The position numbers and the translations under genes were made by a program. A stretch of 64,000 bases of DNA from Gammaproteobacteria bacterium (GTDB taxonomy: Bacteria > Pseudomonadota > Gammaproteobacteria > Steroidobacterales > Steroidobacteraceae), in contig DAHUYP010000008.1 of the NCBI GenBank assembly GCA_027315105.1, positions 1-64,000 on the forward strand, read 5' to 3'. Below, one piece after another: positions 29,426 through 49,590 of this stretch. Within the stretch, counting starts at the first letter, position 1; the number at the start of each line of letters is the position of its first letter. The notes below the pieces were generated by a model. It saw nothing but the letters and a program-made list of their open reading frames with translations. It was not told the DNA's origin and did not search any database.

Positions 29426-29989
29426 GTGGTTAATGCGTGTCGATCGGGCTGCACAAAAACACCGGGTACGATCCGCCCGACAACACTGTATCTTACTTGA
29501 CCCCTGTGGCATTGGCAGACGAGCGGCCCCGCAGTGTGGGTCACCTCACGTTGCGGGTCAGTGGAGCTGCTATCGCCCCGAGACCATGCGTACGATGCGT
29601 GCGCAAGCGAACGGTGCGGCCGCGCGGGCTGTGCCTGCGCCCAAGTGGCGCAGGCCCGCGTCGCACGACGGCCCAATCCGGCGGCCGCGAGTATGGGGCA
29701 ACAAGGTGCATGACGCAATGCAGCAACCACCTGGATCGAGTCCCGGCAGAGAGCCGGCGGTATCCCGCGGAGGGGCAGTCACGGCGGGTCGGCGCCGCGG
29801 CGCTGATGCGCTTCGGTCGCTGCCTCGATGGGCTGCAGTGCAGGTGCCGCTGCGCGCGGCATTGCCGATCCGCCGTCGTGCCGGCGACGCGGTAGCCGCG
29901 GCAAGCGGCGGTTCGCTCGGCTGGCCAGGCGTGATTTGCGTTCGCACTGACTATATGATGACGTTCGCGAAAAGTAGCGGAGCGAAGGG

Positions 29990-30235
29990 ATGTCCGTAAG
30001 ATCCACGATCACATCGCTGTTCGAAGACGTCGCACGCGAACAAGGCCGCAGGCTGTCGCCGTTGTCCGATGATCTGAAGCTGCTGCAGTCGGGCCTCGAC
30101 TCGCTGAGTTTCGCGCTCATCGTTGCACGTCTGGAGGATTCGCTCGGATTCGACCCGTTCGATTCCGCCGAGGCCGTGACATTTCCCGTCACATTCGGCG
30201 ATTTCATAAGGCTGTACGAAAGTCATCCCCGCTAG
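29990..30235 (+). CDS. Acyl carrier protein (carrier 1)
   Basis: 80 aa, phosphopantetheine site LQSGLDSLSFALIV. Confidence 0.85.
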   Translation: MSVRSTITSLFEDVAREQGRRLSPLSDDLKLLQSGLDSLSFALIVARLEDSLGFDPFDSAEAVTFPVTFGDFIRLYESHPR

Positions 30236-30239
30236 TGCC

Positions 30240-31622
30240 ATGTGGCTCTGGGGGTCAATGACGGCAGCCGGGACGCTGCCTTCCGCTACTCTCCAGGGCG
30301 TCGATACCGTCATCAGACTGGCCGATCTCGCAAGCCAATCCATCTTCGCCGCGCGGCTCGAGCAGTTACGCGGGCGCTGCGTCGTGCTTGCGCCGTCCGA
30401 CCAGCTGACCGCGGCGCTGGCCCTGATCGAACTCGACGGCGTTGCCCGGCGCGTGGTGCTGTGTCCGCCGGGGTTGCCGGACGAACATCTTGTGCTGGTG
30501 GCCAAGGAGGCCAATGCCGACGCATGCGTCGCCGATTCCGCCGTGCCGGACATGAGCCGGCTCGGCGTCGAATCGATCGGCCTGCCCGAGCCGCGCGTGC
30601 TGGCAGGCGACGTCGATCGACGCTGTTCACACGCGAGCGAATGGATTCTTCTGACTTCCGGGACCACGGGTGCACCGAAACTCGTCCTGCACAGCCTCGC
30701 CAGCCTGACCAGCGCGTTTGCGCGGCAGCCACGGTCAAGCGAAACGACGGTATGGAGCACGTTCTATGACATCCGGCGCTACGGTGGCCTGCAGGTCTTG
30801 CTGCGCGCCCTGCATGCCGGCTCGATGGTGCTGTCGAGCGCGGACGAGCCAGTGCCCGATTTCCTCGCGCGCGCGGGTGCGGCCACGGTGACGCATATAT
30901 CCGGCACGCCCTCGCATTGGCGCCGCGCGCTCATGAGCGGCGCAGCCGGCCGAATCGCGCCGCGCAATGTCCGCCTGTCCGGGGAAATAGCGGATCAGGC
31001 GATTCTCGACAGCCTGCGGGCCGCCTATCCGGGTGCGACGGTGGCGCATGCCTTCGCCTCCACCGAGGCCGGTGTGGCATTCGAGGTCGGCGACGGCGCC
31101 GCGGGCTTTCCGGCTGCGCTGATCGGCGCCCCGGGCGCAGTCGAACTCAAGATCGAAGAGGGGACGTTGCGGATTCGATCGGCCGGCAACGCCGTGCGCT
31201 ACCTGGGCGATCCGGCGCCGCGGCTCAAGAGCGATGACGGCTTCGTCGATACCGGAGATCGGGTCGAGCAGCGCGACGGACGCTACTACTTCATGGGTCG
31301 CAGCGGCGGCGTGATCAACGTCGGAGGCCTCAAGGTGCATCCCGAAGAGGTGGAAGCGGTCATCAATTCCCATCCCTGGGTCCGCATGTCGCTCGTCAAG
31401 GCGCGTCGCAGCCCGATCACCGGCGCCGTGGTCACTGCCGAGGTGGTGCCGGCCGACGCCGTGGTGGGTCAGGCCGAGCGGCCGGCCAACGAGCAACTCA
31501 CGCACGAGATCACGGAGCTCTGTCAGCGTGTTCTGGCAGCGCACAAGGTGCCGGCGATGATTCGAATCGTGCCGGCGCTGGCGATGTCCGCCGCCGGGAA
31601 ATTGGTGCGCCCGAATGCATAA
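30240..31622 (+). CDS. AMP-binding acyl/aryl ligase (ANL superfamily)
   Basis: ILLTSGTTGAPKLVLHS P-loop, FVDTGDRVEQRDGRYYFMGR, INVGGLKVHPEEVEAVI. Confidence 0.9.
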   Translation: MWLWGSMTAAGTLPSATLQGVDTVIRLADLASQSIFAARLEQLRGRCVVLAPSDQLTAALALIELDGVARRVVLCPPGLPDEHLVLVAKEANADACVADSAVPDMSRLGVESIGLPEPRVLAGDVDRRCSHASEWILLTSGTTGAPKLVLHSLASLTSAFARQPRSSETTVWSTFYDIRRYGGLQVLLRALHAGSMVLSSADEPVPDFLARAGAATVTHISGTPSHWRRALMSGAAGRIAPRNVRLSGEIADQAILDSLRAAYPGATVAHAFASTEAGVAFEVGDGAAGFPAALIGAPGAVELKIEEGTLRIRSAGNAVRYLGDPAPRLKSDDGFVDTGDRVEQRDGRYYFMGRSGGVINVGGLKVHPEEVEAVINSHPWVRMSLVKARRSPITGAVVTAEVVPADAVVGQAERPANEQLTHEITELCQRVLAAHKVPAMIRIVPALAMSAAGKLVRPNA

Positions 31623-32349
31623 TGTCATCGTCACCGGAGGCAGCCGCGGACTGGGGCTGGCAATGGCGTCGCAGCTCGCCGCCGGCGGCTATCGCGTCAT
31701 CGCGGTGGCGCGCACCGAATCCGAAGAGCTGCGGGCGGCCATCGGCGAAGCGGCGGCCCGGAACCGCGGGGAGCTGCATTTTCGCGCGCTCGATCTGAGT
31801 GCTACCGCAACGATCGCGGGCTTCGTGCTCGCGCTGCGCAAGGAATTCGGGCACATCTTCGGGCTCATCAACAACGCCGGGCTCGGTACTTCGGGTGTGC
31901 TTGCGATCATGCGCGACGAGCAGATCGAGAAACTCGTGCGCCTGAACACGCTGGCGCCGATGATTCTGAGCAAGTACGTGCTGCGCTCGATGATGAGCCA
32001 ACGCTCGGGCAGGATCGTCAACGTGGCATCGATCGTCGCCACGACCGGCTACAGCGGGCTGTCGGCGTACTCGGCCACCAAGGCCTCGCTGATCGGTTTC
32101 ACGCGCTCGCTGGCGCGGGAAGTGGGGCAGCTCGGCATCACCGTGAACGCGATCGCCCCCGGCTTCGTCGATACGGAGATGACGCGCGAGCTGGGCGAGG
32201 GCCAGCGCGAGAAGATAATGCGGCGCAGCGCTCTGGGCCGCCTGGTGGACGCCGCCGACATCGCCGCCGCGGCCGACTTTCTGCTGAGCGACAAGGCGAG
32301 GAACGTCACGGGCATCACGCTGACGGTGGACGCCGGCAACACTGCCTAG
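31615..32349 (+). CDS. Short-chain dehydrogenase/reductase (FabG-like)
   Basis: VTGGSRGLGLAMA, NNAG, YSATKASLIGFTRSLA, IAPGFVDTEMT. Confidence 0.93.
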   Translation: MHNVIVTGGSRGLGLAMASQLAAGGYRVIAVARTESEELRAAIGEAAARNRGELHFRALDLSATATIAGFVLALRKEFGHIFGLINNAGLGTSGVLAIMRDEQIEKLVRLNTLAPMILSKYVLRSMMSQRSGRIVNVASIVATTGYSGLSAYSATKASLIGFTRSLAREVGQLGITVNAIAPGFVDTEMTRELGEGQREKIMRRSALGRLVDAADIAAAADFLLSDKARNVTGITLTVDAGNTA

Positions 32350-32361
32350 CGCCGGCGGCGC

Positions 32362-34158
32362 TCACAGGCGTTGCGTTCCGGCCTGCAGACGCTGGTGCAG
32401 GGCAGTATCCAGCGGTACGTAGCCGTCGCGCCGGCGGTCGTCGAAATAGAGCTCATCCGCGATCCGGGCCGGATCATATCCCTGTCGCGCCAGGTCCTGC
32501 TTCTTGAGCTTGAAGGTGCCCGTGAGCTCGATCGCCGGGACGATTCGGACGAACAGCGGGCGCGCGTAATCGGGCAGGCGGCCCGACAGGTGCCGCCGAA
32601 GCTCAGCGAGGTCGAAGTCCGCACTCGGCACGAGAGCCACCATGCCGGCACGTCCCTCGGTGTTCGGCACGCTCACTCCGTACACGGCGGCATCCGCGAC
32701 ACCGCGACAGGCGGTGATGACGGCCGTGACTTCGGTGGTGGATACGTTCTCGCCCTTCCAGCGGTAGGTATCACCGACCCGGTCGACGAAGTAATAGAAT
32801 CCCTGCGCGTCCTGACGCATCAGATCGCCGGTGCGATACCAGGCGTCGCCGGCCGCAAACACGTCGCGCAGCACCTTCTTCTCCGATGCCGCGGAATTCG
32901 CGTAGCCTTCGAAGCGGCCGCTGGGCCTGCCACTGGCGTTGGTTACCTCGCCGATGGCTTCACCGACCTCGTCCGGCCCGCAGCGTACACAATGGCCGGC
33001 CGGGTCGCGCACCGGCATGTCGGTGTCGGAATCGAACCTGACCAGCGCCACCGGCATGCGATGCGACAGGAACGGCGGGATGCGTCCGATGGCGCCCGGC
33101 CGGCCCTCGCAGTTGTAGAGCGAAAAGCTGCCCTCGGTGGCGGCGTAGTATTCGAGGATCCGTGGAATCCGAAAGCGGGTCCTGAATTCATCCCAGACAT
33201 CGCCGCGCAAGCCGTTGCCGCAGCACATTCGCAAATCATGCCGGGTCTCGTCGGGATCGGGCGGACCGTTCACGAGATAGCGGCACAGCTCGCCGATGTA
33301 TTGGAACAGCGTGCAGCGCTCTTCGACCAGATCCCGCCAGAACTCGCGCGCCGAGAACTTCTCGCGCAGTACCACCGCGCCGCCGCCGACCAGGGTGGCG
33401 CCGGTGGCGACTATGCCGCCGACGCTGTGATACAACGGCAGGCAGTCGTACATGCGATCGCTCGGCCGCGTATCCATCATGCCCGCGAACCAATGGCTCC
33501 ATTGCATGATCCGGAAATGACTGACGTTGGCCGCCTTCGGCAGGCCGGTGGTGCCCGAGGTGTAGATGTACAGCGCCCGGTCCTCGAGCGAAGGGGCGCG
33601 GTATTCGGCCGCCGCCAGGGATTGAGCCGCAGCGCCGGACGCCTCCCGATCGATGCGCGGCCACTGCGCATCGCCGGGTCCGTGTGCCCAGTACTGCACG
33701 GTGGGCGCGATCTGCGCGCGCGCCGCGCGCAAGGCGCCGGCCAGCTGCCCGGCGACGATGACAAAACGAGGCGCGACGATATTGATCGAGTGTGCCAGCA
33801 GATCCCCGGTCAGATTGGTGTTCAGCAGCGAGACGATGCCGCCGATGCGGCTAAGGCCGAGCCAGATCGCCATGTAGTCGGGACAATTCGGCATCAGCAG
33901 GCACACGACGTCGCCGTGGCCCAGGCCCTGCGCCAAGGCCCAGCGCGCATAGCGATTCGACGACTCGGAGAGCGAACGGTAGCTCAAGCCGGCATCCCGG
34001 CCGACGAGCGCCGGGGCGTGATCGAACCGGTCGGCCAGAGCATCAACCAGCACCGGAAATGTCAGCAGACGATCGCGTTCGATTGGCGCGGTCAACTCGA
34101 GTGCGCGCAGCCAGGCCTTGAGAGGTGATCGCATGTTTTCGTCTTTGGGAACAGTCAT
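32362..34158 (-). CDS. FATP/long-chain acyl-CoA synthetase-like AMP-binding protein
   Basis: IYTSGTTGLPKAANVSH, YYAATEGSFSLYN, DRVGDTYRWKGENVSTTEV. Confidence 0.92.
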   Translation of the reverse strand: MTVPKDENMRSPLKAWLRALELTAPIERDRLLTFPVLVDALADRFDHAPALVGRDAGLSYRSLSESSNRYARWALAQGLGHGDVVCLLMPNCPDYMAIWLGLSRIGGIVSLLNTNLTGDLLAHSINIVAPRFVIVAGQLAGALRAARAQIAPTVQYWAHGPGDAQWPRIDREASGAAAQSLAAAEYRAPSLEDRALYIYTSGTTGLPKAANVSHFRIMQWSHWFAGMMDTRPSDRMYDCLPLYHSVGGIVATGATLVGGGAVVLREKFSAREFWRDLVEERCTLFQYIGELCRYLVNGPPDPDETRHDLRMCCGNGLRGDVWDEFRTRFRIPRILEYYAATEGSFSLYNCEGRPGAIGRIPPFLSHRMPVALVRFDSDTDMPVRDPAGHCVRCGPDEVGEAIGEVTNASGRPSGRFEGYANSAASEKKVLRDVFAAGDAWYRTGDLMRQDAQGFYYFVDRVGDTYRWKGENVSTTEVTAVITACRGVADAAVYGVSVPNTEGRAGMVALVPSADFDLAELRRHLSGRLPDYARPLFVRIVPAIELTGTFKLKKQDLARQGYDPARIADELYFDDRRRDGYVPLDTALHQRLQAGTQRL

Positions 34159-34247
34159 AATGCCACGCTGGATCCTGGGCGAGGTTTGAATTTGACATGC
34201 CCGGCGACCGCGCGCATCCGAATCAGATCACAATGTGAGCCGATGCC

Positions 34248-35528
34248 ATGAGAAACGAGACCATCGCCGTGCACGGCGGCTTCGATTCCGACCCGACCAC
34301 CAAAGCGGTCGCGGTGCCGATCTATCAAACGGTCGCGTATTCGTTCGACAGCGCCGAGCACGGGGCGGCACTCTTCAACCTCGAGGTCGAGGGCTACCGG
34401 TACAGCCGGATCGCCAATCCGACCAATGCCGTCATCGAAAAGCGCGTCGCGGCGCTCGAAGGCGGCGTGGAGGCGCTGAGCGTGAGCTCCGGCCAGGCGG
34501 CGCTGTTCTATGCGGCGCTGGCAGTGACCGAGATGGGCCGCAACATCGTCTCCGTGCCGCAGCTCTACGGTACTACGCACACGCTGTTTGCCCATGTATT
34601 GCCGAAGCTCGGAGTGAAGGCGAAATTCGCCCAGTCCGATCAGCCGGCGGCGCTGGCGGAACTCATCGATCAGGATACGCGGGCGGTATTCTGTGAGACG
34701 GTCGGCAACCCGGCCGGCAATGTCTGTGACCTGCAGGCCATCGCCGAGGTGGCGCATCGGGCCGGCGTGCCGCTGATCGTCGACAACACCGTTCCCACGC
34801 CCATCCTGCTGCGTCCGATCGACTATGGCGCGGACATCGTACTGCACGCGCTGACGAAGTTTCTCGGCGGCCACGGCACCACGATGGGCGGTATCATCGT
34901 CGACAGCGGCAGGTTTCCCTGGACCGAGCATGCACAGCGATTTCCGATGCTCACGCAGCCCGATGAATCGTACCATGGGCTCGTTTACACGGAACATTAT
35001 GGGCCGGCCGCCTACATCGGCCGCTGCCGCAGCGTCTTCCAACGCACCATGGGTGCGGTGCTGTCGCCACTCAGCGCCTTCCTGCTGCTGCAGGGCATTG
35101 AGACGGTGGCGCTGCGGATTGACCGGCACGTCGAGAATGCCCGGCGCGTGGCGGAATTCCTGCGCGACGACAGCCGGGTTCAATCGGTCAACTATGCGGG
35201 CTTTCCCGACAGCCCGTATTATCCGCTGGTGCAGAAGTACCTCGGCGGCCGGGCCTGCTCGCTGCTGACGTTTGCGATTCGCGGCGGTTACGACGCAGGC
35301 ACTCGTTTCTACGATGCCCTGCGCCTGTTCAAGCGGTTGGTGAACCTGGGTGATGCGAAGTCCCTGGCCTGTCATCCGGCGTCCACCACACACCGGCAGA
35401 TGTCGCCGGCGGAACAACGCCTGGCCGGGATCGGACCGGAGACGATTCGACTGAGCGTCGGCATCGAGCACATCGACGACATCATCGCCGATCTGGACCA
35501 GGCGCTCGACGCCGCGACCCGCAGTTGA
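34248..35528 (+). CDS. metY: O-acylhomoserine sulfhydrylase-like Cys/Met metabolism PLP enzyme
   Basis: ETIAVHGGFDSDPTTKAVAVPIYQTVAYSFDSAEHGAALFNLE; HALTKFLGGHGTTMGGIIVDSG (PLP Lys). Confidence 0.88.
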   Translation: MRNETIAVHGGFDSDPTTKAVAVPIYQTVAYSFDSAEHGAALFNLEVEGYRYSRIANPTNAVIEKRVAALEGGVEALSVSSGQAALFYAALAVTEMGRNIVSVPQLYGTTHTLFAHVLPKLGVKAKFAQSDQPAALAELIDQDTRAVFCETVGNPAGNVCDLQAIAEVAHRAGVPLIVDNTVPTPILLRPIDYGADIVLHALTKFLGGHGTTMGGIIVDSGRFPWTEHAQRFPMLTQPDESYHGLVYTEHYGPAAYIGRCRSVFQRTMGAVLSPLSAFLLLQGIETVALRIDRHVENARRVAEFLRDDSRVQSVNYAGFPDSPYYPLVQKYLGGRACSLLTFAIRGGYDAGTRFYDALRLFKRLVNLGDAKSLACHPASTTHRQMSPAEQRLAGIGPETIRLSVGIEHIDDIIADLDQALDAATRS

Positions 35529-35541
35529 GCGAGTAGCGCCC

Positions 35542-36960
35542 ATGGAGAGCCGAGACGAATTGCCCGTACCGCCGCCGGCGCTGTTTCCGGCCCGGGAAAT
35601 CCGACTGCGGCTGGATGATCTGCTGACACGCGAGCTCGCGGACATGAACGAGCGGGTCGCCCGCGGGCCCGTGATGCCGGACGCGGACATGAAGCTGTTT
35701 CGCGCGCGGCTGGCCGAATTCGATTTCGCCGCGCCGCGGCCCGTGGAGCCGCTGCTCGAATGGGCCATGGCGCAGCTCGAGCACGGCGTGGTGCACATGA
35801 ACAACCCGCGCTACTTCGGTCTGTTCAATCCGGCGGCGAACTTTCCGTCCCAGTGCGCCGATCGCATCGCCGGCGCCTTCAACCCGCAACTCGCGAGCTC
35901 GGGATCCTCCCCGGTGCCGGTGGCGATCGAAGGCCACGTGATCCGCGCCATTGCCGTGCGCGCCGGCCTGCCGGCGGAGTCGAGCGGCCATTTCACCACC
36001 AACGGCTCGGAAGCCAACTACACCTCGCTGGTCTGCGCGTTGACCCGCCTGGAGCCCCGATTCGGCGAGCATGGCGTACGCGCATTCTCAGGTCCGGTCG
36101 CGATGTACACCTCAAGAGAGTGTCAACCCGCCTGGTTCAAGATCGTGCATCAGGCGGGCGTCGGGCGTGCCGCCCTGCGACTCATCGGCACCGACTCCAG
36201 AGGCCAGATGGACAGCCAGGCATTGGCCGAGGCCATCGCGCGCGATCAGGCGCAAGGCATCGTTCCGGTGCTGATCTCCGCGACGGCAGGCACCACGGGC
36301 GGCGGTATGGTAGACCCGCTGGCCGCATGCGCCTCGATCGCGCGCCGGCACGGCATCTGGTATCACGTCGATGCCGCCTGGGGCGGCGCGGCGTTGTGCT
36401 CGGATCGTTTGCGGCCGCTGCTGTCGGGCATCGAGCTCGCCGATTCGGTGACGATCGATGCACACAAGTGGTTCGCGACCACGATGGGCTGCGGGATGTT
36501 CATCACCCGGCAGCCGTCGGTGTTGAGCGAGGCATTTCGCGTCGCCGCCGATTTCATGCCGTCCAGCGCCTCCAATCTGGACCCGTACCTGACCAGCGTA
36601 CAGTGGTCGCGCCGGTTCATGGGCCTGCGTCTGTTCCTGTCGCTGGCGGCCGCCGGATGGCAGGGCTATGGCGCGCACGTCGAGCGCGCGGTGGAGGTCA
36701 TTGCGCGAATCAGGCAGCGGCTGTCGAAACACGGGTGGCTCACCATCAACGACTCGCAGCTCGCGGTGCTGTGCATGGTGCCGCCCGACGGATTTCCGCC
36801 GATTCGCGAGATCGTGCGTCAGGTGCTGGCCTCGGGGCGCGCCTGGGTGGCGGCGACCACTTTCGCCGGACGCGAGGTGCTGCGGATCTGCGCGACTCAC
36901 GGCGAGACCACGCTCGCCGACATCGACGAGCTGGTGGCGGCGCTACAGGCTGCGCGTTGA
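35542..36960 (+). CDS. PLP-dependent amino acid decarboxylase-like protein (group II)
   Basis: GHFTTNGSEANYTSL, WYHVDAAWGGAALCSDR, TIDAHKWFATTMGCGMF. Confidence 0.9.
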   Translation: MESRDELPVPPPALFPAREIRLRLDDLLTRELADMNERVARGPVMPDADMKLFRARLAEFDFAAPRPVEPLLEWAMAQLEHGVVHMNNPRYFGLFNPAANFPSQCADRIAGAFNPQLASSGSSPVPVAIEGHVIRAIAVRAGLPAESSGHFTTNGSEANYTSLVCALTRLEPRFGEHGVRAFSGPVAMYTSRECQPAWFKIVHQAGVGRAALRLIGTDSRGQMDSQALAEAIARDQAQGIVPVLISATAGTTGGGMVDPLAACASIARRHGIWYHVDAAWGGAALCSDRLRPLLSGIELADSVTIDAHKWFATTMGCGMFITRQPSVLSEAFRVAADFMPSSASNLDPYLTSVQWSRRFMGLRLFLSLAAAGWQGYGAHVERAVEVIARIRQRLSKHGWLTINDSQLAVLCMVPPDGFPPIREIVRQVLASGRAWVAATTFAGREVLRICATHGETTLADIDELVAALQAAR

Positions 36961-37260
36961 CTCGCTGACCTTCAGGATCAGCGTCTCGACCGAGGTAATG
37001 GAGAGGAAATTCTCCGGCGTGATCTCGGCCTGCGGTATCGCGATGTCGAATTCGACTTCGATGGCGAGCATGAGATTGACCATCTTGATGGAACTCATCC
37101 CGAGGTCGCTCAACCGGGCGTCGATCGGCAGCGGCCTGGACGCCGCGGGCTGGCCGAGTATCTGCCGAACCAGACCGATCAGACGCTCTCGCGATGTCGG
37201 TTCGGGGCTTCGAGCGTCACTTATATCGTTCATGGCGTCAGCTATCATACCTGCGAGCAA
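36943..37260 (-). CDS. Acyl/aminoacyl carrier protein (carrier 2)
   Basis: LSDLGMSSIKMVNLMLAIEVEFDIAIPQAEITPENF carrier-protein helix II with Ser; likely start 37233. Confidence 0.85.
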   Translation of the reverse strand: MLAGMIADAMNDISDARSPEPTSRERLIGLVRQILGQPAASRPLPIDARLSDLGMSSIKMVNLMLAIEVEFDIAIPQAEITPENFLSITSVETLILKVSESTRSL

Positions 37261-37607
37261 TCAGCGGCGCTCGCGGCGCACCGGGCGCGCGGCACACCGG
37301 AATCGCAGCGGTGACCCGGCATGCTTGCCGTGATACCCGGCGGCAGGCTGACGGCCAGCGCGGCGCGGGTCGCATCAGGAATATGTCCATATTTTTTTAA
37401 TGCTATACGAGGCGGGGTGCCAGCGCGGTGACGGGGCGCTCATTCCGTGCTGCAGCAATGATGCTCCAGGCCGCGAAATTCGCCGTGGATCGCGTTCGCA
37501 GCGGCCGCGAATGCAATCGGGCCGCGCGTCCCGGAGGCGCTACCACTGCTCGAGTCCGGAGATTGCGAGGTCGGTTGTGACATCGATCAAGACGTCCGCA
37601 AGGGATT

Positions 37608-37638
37608 TTGCATTATGGAGTCTCTTAGGGTATCTAAT
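37608..37638 (+). promoter_or_regulatory. Possible sigma-70-like promoter TTGCAT ... TCTAAT upstream of the acyl-CoA dehydrogenase
   Basis: -35-like 37608-37613, -10-like 37633-37638 (19-bp spacer; a 17-bp alternative is TATCTA) in an AT-rich patch. Confidence 0.3.
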
Positions 37639-37677
37639 GTTCGAGCACTAAAGACTAAAGAAGGCAGGGTCACCCAG

Positions 37678-38886
37678 ATGGAATCGCCATTGATGGTCGA
37701 GGCGCCCGCGGGCGCCGCTGGTATCGCAGCGGGCGACCTGAAAGCACGCGCGCAGGCGGTGGCGGCGATTGCCGCCAAGCACGCGTCGGCAGTCGACGGT
37801 GCGGCCCGATTTCCGGCGGAAGCCTTCGAATCGATCAAGGCTCAGCGCTTGCTCGGCGTCGCGGTGCCGAAGGCCCTGGGTGGCGAAGGTGCGAGCATCG
37901 CCGACGTCGCAGATGTCTGCTATCAGCTCGGTCAGGCCTGTGCCGCCACGGGCATGATCTACGCGATGCACCAGATCAAGGTCGGATGCATCATTCGACA
38001 CATGAAGGGCAGCGCGGCGCTCGAACACATGATGCGCCGGCTGTGCGCCGAGCAACTGCTGCTGGCGTCATCCACCACCGAAGGCGGCGGCGGCGGCAAC
38101 GTGCGCTCGAGCGAGGCACCGGTCGAGTATCACGATGGGCGCATCAGTCTGGAGCGCCGAGCCAGCGTGATCTCCTACGGCGCCTACGCGGACGGTATCG
38201 TGACCACGGCGCGCCGCGCCGCCGATGCCGCCCCATCCGACCAGGTACTGGTGGCGTTCCTCAAAGCCGACTATGAACTCACGCGGCTGCAGGGCTGGAA
38301 CACGCTCGGCATGAGGGGTACCTGTAGCGACGGCTATACCCTCAAGGCAACCGGGACGGCCGATCAGATCGTTCCGGAGCCCTACGAGATCATCCATCCC
38401 CATACGATGGTGCCATTCGCGCACCTGTTGTGGGGCTCGGTGTGGACCGGCATCGCTGCGAGCGCCACCGCACGGGCACAGGCATTCATTCGCCAGGCCA
38501 TGCGCCAGGGCAATGGGCAGTTGCCGCCCGGAGCGCCACAGTTCACCAAGGCGCTGACTTCATTGCGAACGCTGCGCGGCATGCTGGCAAACTCGCTGCG
38601 TACCTTCGAGCGCAGCATGGGAGATCCCAAGGCGCTGGCGTCGCTCGAGTTCCAGTCGATGATCACGATCACCAAGGTCGAGGCCTCGGAGCTGGCGACC
38701 TCGATCGTCCTGAGCGCCATGCGGGCATGCGGACTGTCGGGCTATCGCTGCGACAGCGAGTTCAGCGTCGAGCGCCACCTGCGCGACGTGCTGTCGTCGC
38801 CGATCATGATCAACAACGACCGGATACTTGCGAACCTGGCAACCCCCGCGCTGATGGCTCCGATCCCGGGCTCGATGCGCGATTGA
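37678..38886 (+). CDS. Acyl-CoA dehydrogenase family flavoprotein
   Basis: ACAD fold; C-terminal RACGLSGYRCDSEFSVERHLRDVLSSPIM; start 37678 preferred over 37615 because of an upstream AAGGCAGGG-like RBS. Confidence 0.9.
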   Translation: MESPLMVEAPAGAAGIAAGDLKARAQAVAAIAAKHASAVDGAARFPAEAFESIKAQRLLGVAVPKALGGEGASIADVADVCYQLGQACAATGMIYAMHQIKVGCIIRHMKGSAALEHMMRRLCAEQLLLASSTTEGGGGGNVRSSEAPVEYHDGRISLERRASVISYGAYADGIVTTARRAADAAPSDQVLVAFLKADYELTRLQGWNTLGMRGTCSDGYTLKATGTADQIVPEPYEIIHPHTMVPFAHLLWGSVWTGIAASATARAQAFIRQAMRQGNGQLPPGAPQFTKALTSLRTLRGMLANSLRTFERSMGDPKALASLEFQSMITITKVEASELATSIVLSAMRACGLSGYRCDSEFSVERHLRDVLSSPIMINNDRILANLATPALMAPIPGSMRD

Positions 38887-38979
38887 GCGGCCACTCTCGC
38901 GTGATCGCCAGCGTTGCGTTGACGCTGCGCGTGGAGCGATCCGTTCGCCCAATCGCGCAATCGATGGAGAAGCAATAGC

Positions 38980-39906
38980 ATGAGTCCCGCCGAGCCGCAG
39001 ACCGCCTCTCAAGCGCCCGATCCGGTTGCGCACATCGGCGCCGCGATCTTCAGGCGCCTGGGAGTCGACGGGGTGTATGCCCGCACCGCGCTGTACGAGG
39101 ACCTGGTCGAGCGGCTCGCGGCGTTCATCACGCGCCAGCGCGATCCACGCGCCGAGGTGCTGCGGTTTCCGCCCGTGATGAGCCGCCAGCAGCTCGAGAA
39201 GTCGGGCTATCTGAAGAGCTTTCCCAACCTGCTCGGCTGCGTCTGCGCGCTGCACGGCAGTGAAGCGGAGATTCGCGCCGCCGCGGATTCCCATGAGACC
39301 GGCGGCGACTGGACGAAGTCGCTCGCGGCGGCCGACCTGGTCCTCTCGCCGGCGGCCTGCTATCCGCTCTACCCGCTGGTCGCCAGCCGCGGCGGGCTGC
39401 CGCGTGGCGGTCTGCTGTTCGACGTATCGGCGGACTGTTTCCGGCGCGAGCCGTCGCAATCTTTGAATCGACTGCAGTCCTTCCGCATGCGCGAATACGT
39501 GCGCATCGGATCGCCGCAGGAGATCACCGAGTTCCGCGATCAGTGGATGGGGCGCGCCGAGCAGTTGGCGCAAATGCTGCAATTGCCGTGCACCATGGAC
39601 GTGGCGAATGACCCGTTCTTTGGGCGCGTCGGCCAGGTCATGGCGGTCAGCCAGCGGCAGCAGTCGCTGAAGTTCGAATTACTGATTCCCTACTACCCGA
39701 ACGCGGTGCCGACCGCCTGCATGAGCTTCAACTATCACCGCGAGCATTTCGGCACCGTCTGGGGCATCACCGACGCCGCTGGCGAAGCGGCCCATACCGG
39801 CTGCGTCGCCTTCGGCATGGATCGGCTGGCGGTGGCGCTGTTCTGCATCCACGGTGTCGATGTCTCGCGCTGGCCGGGTCCGGTGCGACAGGCCCTGGGA
39901 TTCTGA
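38980..39906 (+). CDS. Amino acid:[carrier protein] ligase (class II aaRS-like, atypical SerRS core)
   Basis: Motif 2-like FRMREYVRIG, motif 3 VAFGMDRLAVALF, possible Zn ligands Cys (LLGCVCALHG), Glu (MREYV), Cys (HTGCVAFG); no tRNA-binding arm. Confidence 0.88.
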   Translation: MSPAEPQTASQAPDPVAHIGAAIFRRLGVDGVYARTALYEDLVERLAAFITRQRDPRAEVLRFPPVMSRQQLEKSGYLKSFPNLLGCVCALHGSEAEIRAAADSHETGGDWTKSLAAADLVLSPAACYPLYPLVASRGGLPRGGLLFDVSADCFRREPSQSLNRLQSFRMREYVRIGSPQEITEFRDQWMGRAEQLAQMLQLPCTMDVANDPFFGRVGQVMAVSQRQQSLKFELLIPYYPNAVPTACMSFNYHREHFGTVWGITDAAGEAAHTGCVAFGMDRLAVALFCIHGVDVSRWPGPVRQALGF

Positions 39907-39962
39907 ACGAACGCCCTGCAGGGCAGCTGTATCTCTGCCCGCCGGGCGCAACCGCACACCCC

Positions 39963-40898
39963 ATGCCACTCGATCCGTATCTGAAGCGGTTCCTGGACCG
40001 GCTGGCGGCCATGAATCCACCCAGCGCCCTGAGCCTCACGGTCAGCGAGCGCCGCCATGCCCTGCAGCATCTGCTGGGATTTTCGGGGCAGGCGGAGGCC
40101 GTCGGCGGTGTCGAGGACCGAAGCCTTCCGGGACCGAATGGGCTGATGCGTACACGCATCTACACCCCCGCCGATGCGCCATCGCCCGTCCTGGCGGCGC
40201 TCATTTATTTTCACGGCGGCGGCTTCGTGGCCGGCGGTCTCGATTCACATGATGCCATCTGCCGCGCGTTGACCAATGCAAGCGGCTGCCGGCTCATTGC
40301 GGTGGATTATCGGCTGGCACCGGAGCATCCGTTTCCGGCCGCCATCAGCGACGGCTACGCCGCGATCTGCTGGATTGCCGCCCACGCAGCGCAGCTCGGC
40401 ATCGATCCGGATCGAATCGGACTGTGCGGGGACTCGGCCGGTGTGACGCTGGCGGCCGTCGTCTGCCAGCAGGCGGTGCAGCGGGGCGAGGTGCGCGTGG
40501 CGCTGCAGTTCCTGCTGTGTCCGATCATGGATTTCTGCGCCGAGACCGCATCGCGCCGCGCGTTCGCCGAAGGCTACCTGGTCGATAAGGCGACCCTGGA
40601 GCATGATCTCAAATACTATCTTGGGCCCGATGCGGATCCGGCCGACCCGCGCGTCTCGCCGCTGCGCGTGACGCAGGTGACGGGCCTGCCGCCCACCTGC
40701 CTGCATACCGCCGAGTATGACCCGTTGCGGGACGAGGGCGAGGCATACGCCGAACGCTTGCGGCTCGCCGGCGTACCGACGACCTACCGATGTCATTCCG
40801 GTATGATTCATCTGTTCTATGGCATGGGGGCGCTGATTCCATATGCGGCCACTGCCTATAGAGTCATCGGCACGGACATCCGCTCCATGCTCACGTGA
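39963..40898 (+). CDS. Alpha/beta-hydrolase, HSL-family esterase
   Basis: YFHGGGFVAGGLDSHD, VDYRLAPEHPFPAA, LCGDSAGVTLA. Confidence 0.92.
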   Translation: MPLDPYLKRFLDRLAAMNPPSALSLTVSERRHALQHLLGFSGQAEAVGGVEDRSLPGPNGLMRTRIYTPADAPSPVLAALIYFHGGGFVAGGLDSHDAICRALTNASGCRLIAVDYRLAPEHPFPAAISDGYAAICWIAAHAAQLGIDPDRIGLCGDSAGVTLAAVVCQQAVQRGEVRVALQFLLCPIMDFCAETASRRAFAEGYLVDKATLEHDLKYYLGPDADPADPRVSPLRVTQVTGLPPTCLHTAEYDPLRDEGEAYAERLRLAGVPTTYRCHSGMIHLFYGMGALIPYAATAYRVIGTDIRSMLT

Positions 40899-40923
40899 CT
40901 TCAGGCCGCGAAGGAGACCACTG

Positions 40924-41307
40924 ATGCCCGATCGCCTCACAGTCGAGCAGCTGCTCAGGGAGCTGTATGCGGCACGCATCGACGGACCCCTCGACCGCCT
41001 GTGCGGCGTTTTCGCCACAGATGCGCATTTCAGGATCGCGGGCACCAGCGACGGCAAGCCGATCGCGATCGCCGCCCATGGCATCGGTGAGATCAGGCCC
41101 TGGCTCGCGATGATGGTGAAGACCTTCAAGCTAGCGAATCATCAGATCATTTCGATGATCATCGACGGCCCGAGGGCCGCGGTGCACTGGCGTGCCGATA
41201 TTCTTTCCAGGATCACCGGCACCGTTGTGCCGACCCAACTCGTGGACCTGATCGAGGTGCGCGAGACGCGGATTGCCTCGTACATCGAGTTCTTCGTACC
41301 GGGTTGA
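40924..41307 (+). CDS. NTF2/SnoaL-like fold protein
   Basis: Small alpha+beta protein: MPDRLTVEQLLRELYAARIDGPLDRLCGVFATDAHFRIAGTSDGKP. Confidence 0.65.
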   Translation: MPDRLTVEQLLRELYAARIDGPLDRLCGVFATDAHFRIAGTSDGKPIAIAAHGIGEIRPWLAMMVKTFKLANHQIISMIIDGPRAAVHWRADILSRITGTVVPTQLVDLIEVRETRIASYIEFFVPG

Positions 41308-41584
41308 TCATGCCGCGCGCCGGTGGGCGCGCGGTCAGGGGCGCGATCGCCGCGCGCGACGGCGATATGTCAAATGATGCCAGCGGCGCCTCCAGCGAGT
41401 TGCGGTCGGCGTTGCCAGAGGTTCGGCAGCGGACCCGCGAAACTGCGACGCGCCGTGTACCGCCGCACAAGTGTTCGGCGTAGACTTCGGCCGGGCAGGA
41501 GGGTAGGACGCCCGACCGCAAGGTTGAGGCGTGCGGGGCGGCTTTGCAGGGTGTCTGGACTCAGCAGAAGCACATCAAAGAGTC

Positions 41585-43456
41585 ATGAGCGCCGATCCAC
41601 AGGCTGAACGCACCATCGCGCCAGGCGGCGGCGTGGAGCAGCCGCTGTACTTCACTTCCGGCGGCCATAAGCTCTTCGGTTGGCTGCACTGCAGCCCAGG
41701 CGAAGCCAGTTCCAGTGTCGGCCTCGTGATCTGCAAACCTTTCGGCTTCGAGTCGATGTCTTCCTACCTGACCGTGCGCGCCTTTGCAGAAGCGGCAGCC
41801 GGATTGGGCATACCGTCCCTGCGATTCGATTATCTCGGCACCGGCGACTCCGAAGACCTGGATCCGCGGGCCGATCAGATTGAGGCCTGGTCGGGCGACG
41901 TGGTGGCCGCCGTCAACGAATTGCGGCGCCGCACCGGCGTCAAGCGCGTATGCCTGCTTGGGATCAGGCTCGGGGCATTGCTCGCCACCCTTGCGGCCTC
42001 CCGATGCGAGGGTACCTGCGCGCTGATCGCGGTTGCGCCGGTCATCAGCGGGCGCCGCTATCTGCGCGAGCTGCGCACCTTTGACCTGGCGGCATCCGCG
42101 CCCGCGCATGACGGCAAGCCGGCGGAGGCCGATTCGTTCGAAGTGAGCGGATTTTTTCTGTCGGCCGCAACCGTCGCCGCGCTATCCAAGATCGATCTGA
42201 TGACGCAGGGTGTACCGCCGGCGTCCGATCTGCTGGTGGTCGATCGCACCGATCTGCCGGCGGCTCGCGCCTGGTCGGACCAGGCCACCGGTGCCGGCAT
42301 ACGAACGCAGTATGTCGCCGTGCCAGGGTTCATCGAGATGGCAATGCGGGCGCCCAACCTGACCGTCATTCCGCAGGCGATGGTCGCCGCAGTTCGTGAT
42401 TGGCTCGCGCAGCTGCAAGGCGTCGAATCGACGCGCGAGTCGGCCGGCAGCGCGCGGCACCCGGATAGCAACTCCGATCCGGCGTGCGAGGAACTGGTGC
42501 TGGATGGGGAGCCGGGGGCGGCGCCAAGCGAGCGGCCGGTATTCGTTGCGTCCGAGACGCTGCTATTCGCTATCGTCACGGCGCCGCGCAAGGGCGAGCC
42601 CCGGCGCCGGGGCGTGATACTCCTCAACTCCGGTGGCGACTATCACATCGGTCCGCGCCGCATGTACGTCTCTCTGGCGCGGCGCTGGGCGAGCCGCGGC
42701 TACGTCGTATTGCGGATGGACCTGCCGGGCCTCGGTGACAGTCCGACCCCCTCGGGGCGAGCCGGCAACGACATCTTTCCGCCCACGGCGGTCAGCGACA
42801 TCCGGGCCGCGATCGAGTTTCTGCGCCGCCAGTACGGGGTGCGCGAGGTCACGGTCGGCGGTGTTTGCTCAGGCGCCTACCACTCGTTTCGCGCGGCAGT
42901 CGACGGCCTGCCGGTGAATCGCATCCTGATGGTGAATCCGCTGAATTTCTTCTCGGAGGACGGCACCGATCCCGCGGAAGTCCAGGCCTGGGAAATCGTT
43001 CACAAGCCGGCGGACTACCGCGCTCGGCTGCGCTCTGCCGACACCTGGCGTCGGGTATTGACCGGCAACGTCAATCTCTGGCGCGTGGCCAAGATATATC
43101 TCCACAGCCCGCTGATGACCTTGCGCATGACCATGCGCAACCTGGCGCGGCGGCTGCACATCCGCGTCAAGAACGATCTTGGCTGGGAACTCGAAAAGGT
43201 GAGGGCACGGGGGGTGCGGCTGGTATTCGTGTTCTCGCGCGACGACGCCGGCATCAAGCTGCTCAAGTCGCAGAGTGGGCTGTCGGACCGGCGACTCGAC
43301 GAGCGCTATCGCATCCGTATCATCGACGGCGCCGACCACAATTTCACTCGCAGCAGTGCGCGCACGACTCTGGAGCAGATCCTGACCGAAGAGCTGCTTG
43401 CGCGTCACGCCTGGGGCGGCCCGAGCGCCGATCTGGCCCTGCAAGGCGGCGGCTAG
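41585..43456 (+). CDS. Double alpha/beta-hydrolase domain protein with atypical nucleophile elbows
   Basis: Two hydrolase-like halves; elbows GIRLG (41965-41979) and GVCSG; resembles exosortase-locus-associated hydrolases. Confidence 0.75.
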   Translation: MSADPQAERTIAPGGGVEQPLYFTSGGHKLFGWLHCSPGEASSSVGLVICKPFGFESMSSYLTVRAFAEAAAGLGIPSLRFDYLGTGDSEDLDPRADQIEAWSGDVVAAVNELRRRTGVKRVCLLGIRLGALLATLAASRCEGTCALIAVAPVISGRRYLRELRTFDLAASAPAHDGKPAEADSFEVSGFFLSAATVAALSKIDLMTQGVPPASDLLVVDRTDLPAARAWSDQATGAGIRTQYVAVPGFIEMAMRAPNLTVIPQAMVAAVRDWLAQLQGVESTRESAGSARHPDSNSDPACEELVLDGEPGAAPSERPVFVASETLLFAIVTAPRKGEPRRRGVILLNSGGDYHIGPRRMYVSLARRWASRGYVVLRMDLPGLGDSPTPSGRAGNDIFPPTAVSDIRAAIEFLRRQYGVREVTVGGVCSGAYHSFRAAVDGLPVNRILMVNPLNFFSEDGTDPAEVQAWEIVHKPADYRARLRSADTWRRVLTGNVNLWRVAKIYLHSPLMTLRMTMRNLARRLHIRVKNDLGWELEKVRARGVRLVFVFSRDDAGIKLLKSQSGLSDRRLDERYRIRIIDGADHNFTRSSARTTLEQILTEELLARHAWGGPSADLALQGGG

Positions 43457-43481
43457 GCGTCTTGTGGTCGCGTCGGTGCGC

Positions 43482-44504
43482 TCAGGCGCGCTGGCGGCGT
43501 TGCATCTGCTTGTCGGCGGCGATCGTCTGCAGCCAATGGCGATAGAACTGCACGGCTCCGGCGCGCCAGCCGGGGACGAGCTTCGCCGCGGCCGCCTCGA
43601 ATGGAAATTCGCTCATGAGGGCTTCGCGCCGCTGGTCGCGTGCCTGCGCTTCGAACTGCGCCAGGCGCGCGGTGATGGCCGCATCGAAGTAGCCGTACGG
43701 CATGGTGGGGTAGGTGTCGCGCTCGCCGCGCAGGAAGCGCGCCACGTCGCGCTGATATTCCTTGAGCAGGCTGCGCTCGTCGTATTCCGGGTGCCCCTGC
43801 CAGAACAGGAACAGGCTTCCGAGCTGCTTGGCAAACAGATTGACGCCGGCCTGCTCGGAGACGGTCAGGATCTCGTAGCCGCAACTCTCCAGCGCAGCCG
43901 GCGCGACTTCGTTCCAACGCGAATGCGGCGCACTGGTCGGTGCCGCGAGGTCGCGCGTCAGCCGATGGGCGGTGTTGACCCGATGTTCGAACACACCGCA
44001 GCACTTTTGCGCCAGGGCCCGCCGCGGCACGCCGTCGAGGTGCAGCACTGCGGCGTGCGCCGCCAGGCAGGACCAGACGGCCGAGGCGACGTTCGCCTTC
44101 GACCACTCGATCAGTTCCACCAGGCTGTCCCAATAGGATTCCTGTCTGAGGTCTGGGCTGCGCGGTTCGGCACCGGTGACGATCAGTGCGTCCAGGCTGC
44201 CGTTCCAGAGCTGGCGCAATTCCCCATAGGAGCCGGAAATGCGCGCACGCGCGGCGTCGGCTCGCGGAATCTCCGGCAGCGAATAGAAGCGCAGGCGTAC
44301 CGGCAGGGGTCCGGCCGCCGCCGCCAGCAGATTCGAGAACTGCCGTTCCGTGGCCTCGAGAGCCGAGTCCGGCATGTTGTTGACGAGCCCGATCTCGATG
44401 CAGGACGCGCTCGCAGGGTCGTCGGCGGAACCGCCTGCAGGTCCAGGGCGGCCGCCCCTGCCGGCACCGGCTGCGGGCCATCGGTTGTCGATCAATAAAG
44501 GCAT
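43482..44504 (-). CDS. metA: Homoserine O-succinyltransferase-like protein (MetA/HST family)
   Basis: EIGLVNNMPDSALEATERQF; LIVTGAEP; VWSCLAAHAAVLHLDGVPRRALAQKCCGVFEH; QGHPEYD. Confidence 0.88.
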   Translation of the reverse strand: MPLLIDNRWPAAGAGRGGRPGPAGGSADDPASASCIEIGLVNNMPDSALEATERQFSNLLAAAAGPLPVRLRFYSLPEIPRADAARARISGSYGELRQLWNGSLDALIVTGAEPRSPDLRQESYWDSLVELIEWSKANVASAVWSCLAAHAAVLHLDGVPRRALAQKCCGVFEHRVNTAHRLTRDLAAPTSAPHSRWNEVAPAALESCGYEILTVSEQAGVNLFAKQLGSLFLFWQGHPEYDERSLLKEYQRDVARFLRGERDTYPTMPYGYFDAAITARLAQFEAQARDQRREALMSEFPFEAAAAKLVPGWRAGAVQFYRHWLQTIAADKQMQRRQRA

Positions 44505-44702
44505 GCAAACGTATCGGCGGTCCCGTCGGGCTCGGCTTCAATGCTAAGGGGGTTCATCGGCGCTGTCACGCCGGCGACCTTAAGTTCAATCGCCCAGCCA
44601 GCGAACGGCGCGCCCATCCAACCGCCGCGAGCCGCAGGCGCGCGCCGTGCATCGTGCGCCGTGCGCTAGAATCGCGCGCGCCGGTCACAACGACCCATCG
44701 AC

Positions 44703-45431
44703 ATGAGCACCGATACCGCGACGCCGATAATGCTGCCCAATCCTGCCCGCCATGCGCCGGCCCTGGCGCGGCTGTTCGGGCCGGAGGTCGCCGCCAGCGA
44801 GCTGCGCGGCGTCTGTGAGCCGCAGCTGCTGCTGCGTGAGGAGCTGCGGTGCGTGTCCAGGGCGCGGCTGCCGCGGCGGCAGGAATTTGCCGCCGGGCGG
44901 GTATGCGCGCGCCATGCCATGGCGCAACTCGGCATCATGGGCTACGCGCTGGGAATGGCGGCGGACCGTCAGCCCGAATGGCCACCCGGATTGGTCGGCA
45001 GCATCACCCACACGCAGGGCTATTGCGGCGCCGTGGTTGCCGAGCGGCGGCGCATGCGCAGCGTCGGATTGGATGCCGAGGTCGTTGCCGACGTTACTCC
45101 GAATCTGTGGCCGCGAATCTGCGCGCCGAGCGAGCGCGCATGGCTCGGCACGCTGCCGGCGGGCAGTGCGCAGCGCGCCGCGGCGCTGATATTCGCCGCC
45201 AAGGAAGCGTACTACAAGTGCCAGTTCCCGCTGACCGGCGAGGCGCTCGGGTTTCTCGACGTGACGGTCCGCTGCGATGACCTCGCGGCCGATCACGGGC
45301 AATTCTCGATGCTGCCGCAACGCGCGATCGAGCTGGACAGGCGTTACCCGCCGCCGAGCGGCCGTTTCCGCTTCCATGAGGGCTATGTCTGCGCCGGGGT
45401 GGCGGTGCGCGACGTCGGCCCGGATCAGTAA
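44703..45431 (+). CDS. 4'-phosphopantetheinyl transferase (EntD/Sfp type)
   Basis: VGSITHTQGYCGAVV, SVGLDAE, IFAAKEAYYKCQFP. Confidence 0.9.
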   Translation: MSTDTATPIMLPNPARHAPALARLFGPEVAASELRGVCEPQLLLREELRCVSRARLPRRQEFAAGRVCARHAMAQLGIMGYALGMAADRQPEWPPGLVGSITHTQGYCGAVVAERRRMRSVGLDAEVVADVTPNLWPRICAPSERAWLGTLPAGSAQRAAALIFAAKEAYYKCQFPLTGEALGFLDVTVRCDDLAADHGQFSMLPQRAIELDRRYPPPSGRFRFHEGYVCAGVAVRDVGPDQ

Positions 45432-46831
45432 GCCTTGTCGTCGCCGAATACCTTGAGCACCGTCAACAGCAGGATCTTCACGTCCAGCATCGGCGACCAG
45501 TGACGAAGGTAGTCGAGGTCGTGCCGCACGCGCGCCTCCATCTCCTCGAGCTTGACGGTCTCGCCGCGGGCGCCGTTGATCTGCGCCAGCCCGGTGATGC
45601 CGGGTAGCACCTTGTGGCGGACCATGTAGCCCTTGATGAGCCTGCGGTACAGCTCGTTGTGCGCCACCGCATGCGGCCGCGGGCCGACCAGGCTCATGCG
45701 CCCCTGCAGCACGTTGATGAACTGCGGCAGTTCGTCGAGCGAATAGCGCCGCAGGAATCTGCCGATCGGCGTGATGCGCTCGTCGTCGCGCGAGGCCTGG
45801 CGCAGCTCGGCGCCATCCTCGGTGACGGTCATGGTGCGGAACTTGTAGACGATGATCTCATGACCGTCGAGGCCGTAACGGCGCTGCCGGAAGATCGCCG
45901 GGCCGGGCGAGGTCGCCTTCACCATGAGCGCGATCAACAGCAGCAGCGGCGACGCCACGACCAGGAAGCAAGCCGACATGAAGATATCGAACAGGCGCTT
46001 GGTCAGGCCGCGGTAGCCGTAGAAGGGCGTCTCGCACATCGCCACCACGGGGATACCGCTCAGCTCGCTCGAGCGCGCCTGAATCAGGTCGAACACGAAG
46101 ATATCCGGCACGTAATAGATCGATGCGGTGGTATCGCGCAGGTCATCGAGCAGGTCGAGCACCCGCTTGAGATGCCGAATCGGCAGCGCGATGTAAATCA
46201 CGTCGATGTTGTGCTGCTTGGCGAATGCACCCAGGTCGGACAGCTTGCCTACCAGGCGCGTGCCGTGCTCCATCTTGAGCCGATCGGCGCCGCGGTCGTC
46301 GAAGAAGCCCTGCACCTGCAGCCGCAGCGCGGGATCGCTCTCGAGCGTGCGGGCCAGCGCGAGGCTGGTGCGGTTATAGCCGGCGATGATCACCCGGCGG
46401 CTGCCGACCGCGCTCAGCACGACGCGCCGCATGACGAGGTGGATCAGCAGCGTGCTGGCGATCAGTGCCAGCGGCGTCGCCAGGGACCAGGTGATGATCG
46501 CCGGCGCCGGATACAGCGCCAGCGAGCCGGTACCGGAGCCGATGACGAGCAGCACCAGCAGCAGCATCAGCCACTGCAGGGCCGCGCCGCCGGCGGCCCG
46601 CGACGGCTGCCAATGCAACTGGGCGCCCAGGTCGCGGGGCGGGCGGATCAGCATCACGAACATCAAGGTGATTATGACGGCCAGGGTCGAGGCCGAATCC
46701 TGGAACGAGATGCGCCAGATGTGGGTGACGACATAGAGCGATGCGACCGCCACCAGCGCCGGGGCGATGGTTTGCAGCACTACCATGAGCGCGACCAGAA
46801 AGCTGCGCTTGATGAGCACGGGCGCGGTCAT
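45425..46831 (-). CDS. wcaJ: Undecaprenyl-phosphate glucose phosphotransferase (WcaJ/EpsB-type)
   Basis: TM N-terminus, CoA-binding-like middle, KRLFDIFMSACFLVVASPLLLLIALMVKATSPGPAIFRQRRYGLDG; SLVGPRPHAVAHNE; LPGITGLAQINGARGET. Confidence 0.9.
   Translation of the reverse strand: MTAPVLIKRSFLVALMVVLQTIAPALVAVASLYVVTHIWRISFQDSASTLAVIITLMFVMLIRPPRDLGAQLHWQPSRAAGGAALQWLMLLLVLLVIGSGTGSLALYPAPAIITWSLATPLALIASTLLIHLVMRRVVLSAVGSRRVIIAGYNRTSLALARTLESDPALRLQVQGFFDDRGADRLKMEHGTRLVGKLSDLGAFAKQHNIDVIYIALPIRHLKRVLDLLDDLRDTTASIYYVPDIFVFDLIQARSSELSGIPVVAMCETPFYGYRGLTKRLFDIFMSACFLVVASPLLLLIALMVKATSPGPAIFRQRRYGLDGHEIIVYKFRTMTVTEDGAELRQASRDDERITPIGRFLRRYSLDELPQFINVLQGRMSLVGPRPHAVAHNELYRRLIKGYMVRHKVLPGITGLAQINGARGETVKLEEMEARVRHDLDYLRHWSPMLDVKILLLTVLKVFGDDKAY

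Positions 46832-48247: not shown

Positions 48248-48256
<9 letters not shown>
48221..48256. terminator. Perfect 12-bp inverted repeat between convergent genes, overlapping the glrR-like stop codon
   Basis: GGCCGGTAGCGG (48221-48232), 12-nt loop, CCGCTACCGGCC (48245-48256). Confidence 0.55.

Positions 48257-49590
<1,334 letters not shown>

Follow-up and report, generated by a model that had tools for sequence, protein, structure and literature searches.

A putative amino acid pathway with two carrier proteins beside exopolysaccharide genes in a Steroidobacteraceae bacterium

Gene content of the enzyme block

The DNA analysed here (the window) is a stretch of 64,000 nucleotides from a gammaproteobacterium of the family Steroidobacteraceae (contig DAHUYP010000008.1, positions 1 to 64,000), in which genes were called by codon-position GC together with protein-family matches. 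A block of enzyme genes at 29990-45431, flanked by EpsE and WcaJ genes that are both on the minus strand, combines two carrier proteins with a stand-alone amino acid:[carrier protein] ligase resembling class II aminoacyl-tRNA synthetases (aaRS), an ANL-superfamily adenylating enzyme, a flavoenzyme resembling acyl-CoA dehydrogenases (ACAD), a short-chain dehydrogenase/reductase (SDR), and MetA- and MetY-like enzymes (Table 1). Family matches recovered all the enzyme classes that a preliminary description had placed between the two flanking genes, and some details were revised. Carrier 2 is encoded on the minus strand, between the pyridoxal phosphate (PLP) decarboxylase and the ACAD-like enzyme, and FATP and MetA are also on that strand; a plus-strand open reading frame (ORF) at 37400-37651 was dropped as a candidate for carrier 2, having no family match and lying on the wrong strand. 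Among the three genes described as hydrolase-type, the HSL-type esterase and the two-domain alpha/beta hydrolase are indeed such enzymes, but the third encodes a SnoaL-like protein.

Table 1. Genes of the enzyme block and its two flanks (positions in the window; aa, amino acids).
Feature	Position	Strand	Family match
EpsE-like polysaccharide export protein (flank)	28502..29512	-	TIGR03028/PF02563
Carrier protein 1 (ACP1), 81 aa, phosphopantetheine site GLDSLSF	29990..30235	+	PF00550
ANL-superfamily adenylating enzyme, 460 aa	30240..31622	+	PF00501/PF13193
FabG-type SDR	31615..32349	+	PF00106/PF13561
FATP-type long-chain acyl-CoA synthetase	32362..34158	-	NF006134, 759 bits (cut-off 625)
MetY-like O-acylhomoserine sulfhydrylase family (gamma-substituting PLP enzyme)	34248..35528	+	TIGR01326, 593 (cut-off 495)
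Group II PLP decarboxylase	35542..36960	+	PF00282
Carrier protein 2, aminoacyl carrier protein (GMSSIKMVNLML, Ser48)	36943..37233	-	PF00550; PDB 4h2s_C
ACAD-like flavoenzyme; start probably 37678	37615..38886	+	PF02771/PF00441
Stand-alone amino acid:[carrier protein] ligase, class II aaRS-like, 308 aa	38980..39906	+	NF005479; 3mey/4h2s
HSL-type alpha/beta hydrolase/esterase (abh3)	39963..40898	+	PF07859
SnoaL-like NTF2-fold protein; likely start near 40924	40843..41307	+	PF12680
Two-domain alpha/beta hydrolase, 641 aa	41531..43456	+	TIGR03101/TIGR03100, E=1e-28/1e-39, below cut-offs
MetA-like homoserine O-acyltransferase (long type)	43482..44504	-	NF003776, 404 (cut-off 358)
Sfp-type phosphopantetheinyl transferase (PPTase)	44703..45431	+	PF17837/PF01648
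WcaJ undecaprenyl-phosphate glucose phosphotransferase (flank)	45425..46831	-	TIGR03023, above cut-off

Co-conservation of the gene set

The distribution of these genes was followed in 246 genomes of the same order, in 398 Pseudomonadota genomes, and in GTDB contigs scanned for the ligase. Within the order, the ligase was present in 12 genomes and missing from each of the four siblings sampled within the genus, indicating a patchy distribution. Six genomes from this family had nearly the whole cluster; in five, MetA adjoined carrier 2. Seven of the eight same-order genomes with the ANL enzyme also carried the ligase. The contig scan yielded 80 ligase loci from gamma- and alphaproteobacteria, with the ACAD adjoining the ligase in every one and carrier 2 in 72, while MetY, MetA, FATP, ANL, SDR, ACP1, and abh3 were each found in 22-28 loci, in varied orders and orientations. 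ACP1 was always accompanied by ANL and SDR in these relatives, and in alphaproteobacteria the cluster was rearranged or split. Such retention of gene content in reshuffled order suggests selection on linkage.

The association also holds where the genes are apart. In Bradyrhizobium they occupy three unlinked sites (carrier 2-ACAD-ligase-GNAT, FATP-ACP1-ANL-SDR, and MetY-MetA), and the ANL enzyme was present in all 19 ligase-bearing genomes reached through the loci. Among the 398 Pseudomonadota genomes, taking ligases of at least 59% identity as cluster-type and counting ANL at E<1e-100, the ligase was found in 13, and ANL in the very same genomes and in a single further one, whose ligase is 52% identical; the long-type MetA was present in 13/13 genomes with the cluster-type ligase. 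Fisher tests, in which relatedness is ignored, gave P ~2e-23 for ligase and ANL, ~8e-17 for ligase and MetA, and ~2e-9 for ligase and ANL at the genus level (5/5). The genome-neighbourhood comparison thus revealed a clearly co-conserved set and supports the earlier proposal of one pathway around the activation of an amino acid on a carrier protein; that the block serves one shared pathway can be stated with high confidence.

Other members vary between lineages. The PLP decarboxylase was present in 16 of the 22 gammaproteobacterial loci and in none of the others, and a class IV aminotransferase (15 loci) and a thiamine pyrophosphate (TPP) enzyme (8 loci) were confined to non-gammaproteobacterial loci, never alongside the decarboxylase. 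Tandem GNATs were found in 53 of the 64 non-gammaproteobacterial loci, and some gammaproteobacterial loci encode a different GNAT-like protein, recognised by eye and without a family match. GNATs of the cluster types (F3, F44) were not found in the window, which carries the hydrolase fusion where other loci have GNATs. This two-domain protein joins domains resembling exosortase-A-associated hydrolases 2 and 1, in that order, and was present in only four related loci; the only exosortase found in this genome lies on a different contig (C75). The SnoaL-like protein was present in 19/22 gammaproteobacterial loci and the abh3 esterase in 31/88 ligase loci. The PPTase, counted in the preliminary description as one of the set, had a homologue in 0/80 related loci at the threshold used, and on conservation it was dropped from the core together with the two-domain hydrolase; it may serve both carriers of the window.

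The Bradyrhizobium genomes and the f34 and f67 genomes provided additional observations. Some Bradyrhizobium genomes hold the split core locus plus a second full cluster (L055/L088, L060/L093), suggesting more than one acquisition or duplication of the pathway. In most Bradyrhizobium (L044-L083; e.g., L154:5805-7900) the methionine salvage genes MtnA and MtnP adjoin carrier 2-ACAD-ligase on the strand of the carrier. This adjacency may be a functional link or chance; since it was seen beside the Bradyrhizobium core loci and not in other lineages, both genes are regarded here as neighbours. The f34 and f67 genomes hold a second ligase clade at ~50% identity without an ANL partner, which probably serves another pathway.

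Conserved residues and predicted chemistry

The ligase scored above the curated NF005479 cut-off (455.9 vs 357 bits) and, in the PDB comparison, was closest to Bradyrhizobium Bll0957 (3mey, E=1.5e-142), with 64-70% identity over the full length to the ligases of the Bradyrhizobium loci. It consists of a class II aaRS-like core without a tRNA-binding domain, seryl-tRNA synthetase (3w3s) matching only from residue 223. C127, E172, and C275, a Cys/Glu/Cys zinc-ligand pattern, are invariant in the alignment, with the same spacing as the residues that we take to be the zinc ligands of Bll0957 (C131/E176/C279). Carrier 2 in turn best matched the partner with which Bll0957 was crystallised, aminoacyl carrier protein 1 (4h2s_C, E=1e-17), and its pantetheine-site Ser48 is invariant in 22 sequences. 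Bll0957-type ligases load amino acids onto carriers, as demonstrated biochemically, and the substrate of Bll0957 is presumably glycine; by analogy, carrier 2 would probably be loaded with glycine or another small amino acid. To our knowledge, the biological role of these ligases is still open. Our full-text literature search, which scarcely covered subscription journals, found Bll0957 named in a single paper, where this ligase, the ACAD encoded next to it (bll0958), and MetZ (bll1105) are tabled among the proteins raised in a phaR mutant (PMC10888616), a joint increase that is suggestive at most.

The ACAD-like enzyme is 56-77% identical across 33 relatives and shows changes at catalytic positions. 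In alignments to solved structures, the Glu376 site is occupied by Ile399, inside the conserved motif RDVLS(S/A)P(I/L)MINNDRI, and the isovaleryl-type base site (Glu254 position) by an invariant His270, placed by alignment to 7p98 and general knowledge of ACAD structures. Profile alignment thus maps no Glu to either position at which a desaturating ACAD would carry one. An AlphaFold2 model (predicted local distance difference test, pLDDT, 84) had the monooxygenase DszC as its best fold match, followed by ACADs and nitrososynthases. The missing Glu base and the DszC-like fold make ordinary Calpha-Cbeta desaturation less likely, and a non-desaturase chemistry is somewhat favoured; these features would accord with an aminoacyl thioester being converted to an imine or oxygenated at its nitrogen. 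It is likely that the enzyme acts on the aminoacyl thioester of carrier 2.

Regarding the second carrier line, the ANL enzyme carries an invariant FYDIRRYGGLQ motif, and its Asp177, followed by two Arg, is invariant in the alignment, as are the two Arg. This residue appears from the sequence to sit where amino-acid-adenylating enzymes hold the amino group of the substrate, and an amino-bearing acid could thus be the load of carrier 1, an assignment that falls just short of being favoured.

MetY is 66-86% identical among clusters, and Cys146, His238, and Glu240 of MetA are invariant. Both enzymes scored above the curated cut-offs for methionine biosynthesis. The acyl-donor loop of MetA reads Glu-Pro, which differs from both the acetyl and the succinyl loop signatures that we assume to be usual for this family. 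MetA is single-copy in this genome, but three more full PF01053 genes and two MetX-like genes lie outside the window, so that the MetY and MetA of the cluster are probably not the sole route to homocysteine. The decarboxylase and the aminotransferase/TPP route would both remove an amino acid carboxylate, perhaps from the MetY product.

These elements can be arranged into a single scheme. In one line, the aaRS-like ligase would charge carrier 2 with a small amino acid, glycine being the likeliest by comparison with Bll0957, and the flavoenzyme would oxidise the resulting thioester at Calpha-N or at the nitrogen rather than desaturate it. In the other, the ANL enzyme would load a second, probably amino-bearing acid onto carrier 1, where the FabG-type SDR would adjust its oxidation state. 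MetA and MetY would supply a gamma-substituted homoserine unit, in the simplest case homocysteine, which the PLP decarboxylase in gammaproteobacteria, or the aminotransferase and TPP enzyme in alphaproteobacteria, would decarboxylate; FATP would provide a fatty acyl-CoA. Release or transfer by the hydrolases, elsewhere by the tandem GNAT acyltransferases, would yield a modified acyl group or small metabolite, in several lineages probably attached to, or co-exported with, surface polysaccharide.

The closest relative of this scheme is the Bll0957 pair with aminoacyl carrier protein 1 (3mey, 4h2s), which shares the ligase type, a homologous carrier, and an adjoining ACAD; the window ligase differs in being clustered with ANL/ACP1/SDR, MetA/MetY, FATP, and the PLP decarboxylase. 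The XrtA (exosortase-A)-associated genes (TIGR03098-TIGR03101) likewise place a carrier, an AMP-forming ligase, a PLP decarboxylase, and hydr1/hydr2-like hydrolases beside exopolysaccharide (EPS) genes, but the window decarboxylase belongs to PF00282, and the aaRS-like ligase, ACAD, and MetA/MetY are additions to that set. The canonical exosortase-A carrier-protein pathway was rejected because the scores stayed below the cut-offs (TIGR03098, 49/592; TIGR03100, 136/168; TIGR03101, 100/203 bits), and TIGR03099 was not among the profile matches. A pathway of the vinylglycine, rhizobitoxine, or aminoethoxyvinylglycine type, with MetY coupling and desaturation, was prompted by MetA, MetY, and the decarboxylase; it was also discarded, as the literature gave no matching cluster and the ACAD lacks a desaturase base. 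The full-text literature, with subscription journals scarcely covered, yielded no account of a pathway built from these genes, in line with the earlier view that the full set is undescribed.

The polysaccharide link and alternative readings

EPS genes were searched for with seed proteins, so that their absence is weaker than their presence, and counts come from the cluster loci alone, without a random-locus background. Within ~10 kb of the pathway genes, polysaccharide genes were found in the window and in several relatives: EpsE, F, G, and U in G227; an XrtA-type chain-length protein, above cut-off, and a kinase in G110; Wzz and WcaJ in G164; WcaJ beside ANL in G225 and also in L034; and an XrtA export protein, above cut-off, in L031. 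Among alphaproteobacteria, Wzz lies near the cluster in three f54 genomes (G415, G535, G431), the first two also with a VpsF family protein and a glycosyltransferase; adjacency in L088-L090 was weaker. Polysaccharide genes of differing types thus stand beside the cluster in at least seven gammaproteobacterial and these three f54 genomes. The same search detected no such genes around the cluster in G229, G237, L035, L036, L042, L049, and L095, nor around the Bradyrhizobium ligase loci.

Other genes of the EPS region were noted as well. Two related ~430-aa proteins without Pfam or NCBIfam match (22564-23868 and 23893-25170, minus strand) both match a single protein near the G227 cluster (L176:6948-8261). 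The window also encodes a 1239-aa PAS/GAF-GGDEF-EAL protein near the EPS locus (54533-58252) and, on the minus strand at 11186-13648, an 820-aa protein with at least five Calx-beta domains.

A possible mode of attachment is offered by the Caulobacter holdfast, which is modified by the deacetylase HfsH and the tandem-GNAT acyltransferase HfsK (PMC5362036). Loci related to the window contain tandem GNATs and an HfsH-like deacetylase, the latter adjoining MetY-MetA in five Bradyrhizobium genomes, which makes acylation of a deacetylated polysaccharide a workable model, although HfsH/HfsK-type genes are not in the window itself. In L158-L160, L164, and L165, MetY-MetA is followed by the HfsH-like deacetylase, RecQ, and an ACC-deaminase-like protein, the last two recognised by eye. 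A further parallel appears to be offered by the N-acyl amino acid synthase loci, which work cited in PMC7293339 links to PEP-CTERM/exosortase systems: as far as that mention goes, they too set amino-acid-derived small-molecule genes beside EPS/exosortase genes, and GNATs occur in many loci related to the window, whose amino acid would, by contrast, be activated on a carrier by the aaRS-like ligase.

The recurrence of polysaccharide genes beside the cluster in unrelated lineages makes a link with EPS a better explanation than accidental neighbourhood. Hence, the part of the preliminary description that tied the block to EPS stands for several unrelated lineages but not for most Bradyrhizobium loci, and the link is read as recurrent but not obligatory. 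A product linked to surface polysaccharide in at least some lineages is proposed tentatively, at slightly less than even confidence. Against it, the cluster could make a free secreted or intracellular metabolite independent of EPS, such as a sulfur-containing amine or heterocycle from homocysteine and oxidised glycine, within a shared variable genome region. This is a serious alternative, of moderately less than even probability, favoured by the lack of EPS genes beside the cluster in Bradyrhizobium, L026, G237, L036, L035, L042, and L095. In L035, L042, and L095 the cluster even adjoins the same GlrR/GlrK locus as in the window, with no EPS genes intervening. The differing polysaccharide genes beside the gammaproteobacterial and f54 clusters argue the other way, as do the deacetylase beside MetY-MetA in Bradyrhizobium and the tandem GNATs of many loci. 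The GlrR/QseG/GlrK-like two-component locus (48248-51679 in the window) was observed beside the cluster whether EPS genes lie between or not, and this common neighbour in several gammaproteobacterial genomes suggests a shared insertion site.

It is very unlikely that a common product is lacking and that the block merely sets independent functions side by side, namely a Bll0957-type carrier module, a MetA-MetY methionine pair, EPS genes, and the activation of fatty acids. MetY and MetA do score as standard methionine enzymes and FATP as a standard long-chain acyl-CoA synthetase, and the ligase module occurs by itself in other lineages; yet in two classes the genes stay linked although their order is reshuffled, 13/13 genomes combine the ligase with ANL and the long-type MetA even when these are unlinked, and the genome has other MetX-like and PF01053 genes elsewhere. 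Still less probable is an extender pathway for polyketide synthases (PKS) or nonribosomal peptide synthetases (NRPS), in which SDR and ACAD would oxidise the loaded amino acid. In zwittermicin A biosynthesis, the route to aminomalonyl-ACP employs one carrier line and a dehydrogenase of the 3-hydroxyacyl-CoA type, and feeds a megasynthase. The window cluster shares with this route adenylation, a carrier protein, a dehydrogenase, and a predicted ACAD-type oxidation of an aminoacyl thioester. However, it has two distinct carrier lines, a FabG-type SDR, and an ACAD without the Glu base, and no PKS/NRPS megasynthase was found in the window or the scanned large flanking ORFs, so that the close parallel drawn earlier is not supported.

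For the scheme as a whole, a dedicated biosynthetic pathway with two carrier-protein lines that Alpha- and Gammaproteobacteria carry complete or in parts, confidence is even. Several points weigh against it. A further 16 of the sampled genomes have the long-type MetA but no ligase, and carrier-ligase pairs at ~50% identity occur without ANL, implying that this module can be put to use in other pathways. EPS genes are absent from the vicinity of about half the related gammaproteobacterial loci and of nearly all Bradyrhizobium loci, MetY scores as an ordinary sulfhydrylase, and the hydrolase fusion and PPTase are not conserved partners. In addition, the mapping of the ACAD base positions rests on weak alignments, and glycine specificity is carried over from a ~70% identical relative and its presumed substrate. 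Gene content, homology, co-conservation, the co-occurrence of unlinked genes, and the altered catalytic residues are observed; all substrates, the sequence of reactions, the end product, and a role in EPS are deduced from them. The most specific version, in which carrier-bound glycine oxidised by the base-less ACAD combines with another acid held on a carrier and with a unit derived from homoserine to give a new polysaccharide decoration, is a conjecture, of moderately less than even confidence.

The co-conserved partners (ANL/ACP1/SDR, FATP, MetA/MetY, and GNAT or decarboxylase) define a likely pathway for the Bll0957-type ligases. Since Bradyrhizobium, which grows readily in culture, holds this pathway at three separate loci, gene deletions there could test it directly. 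If the link with EPS is true, the product would represent a new kind of polysaccharide decoration.

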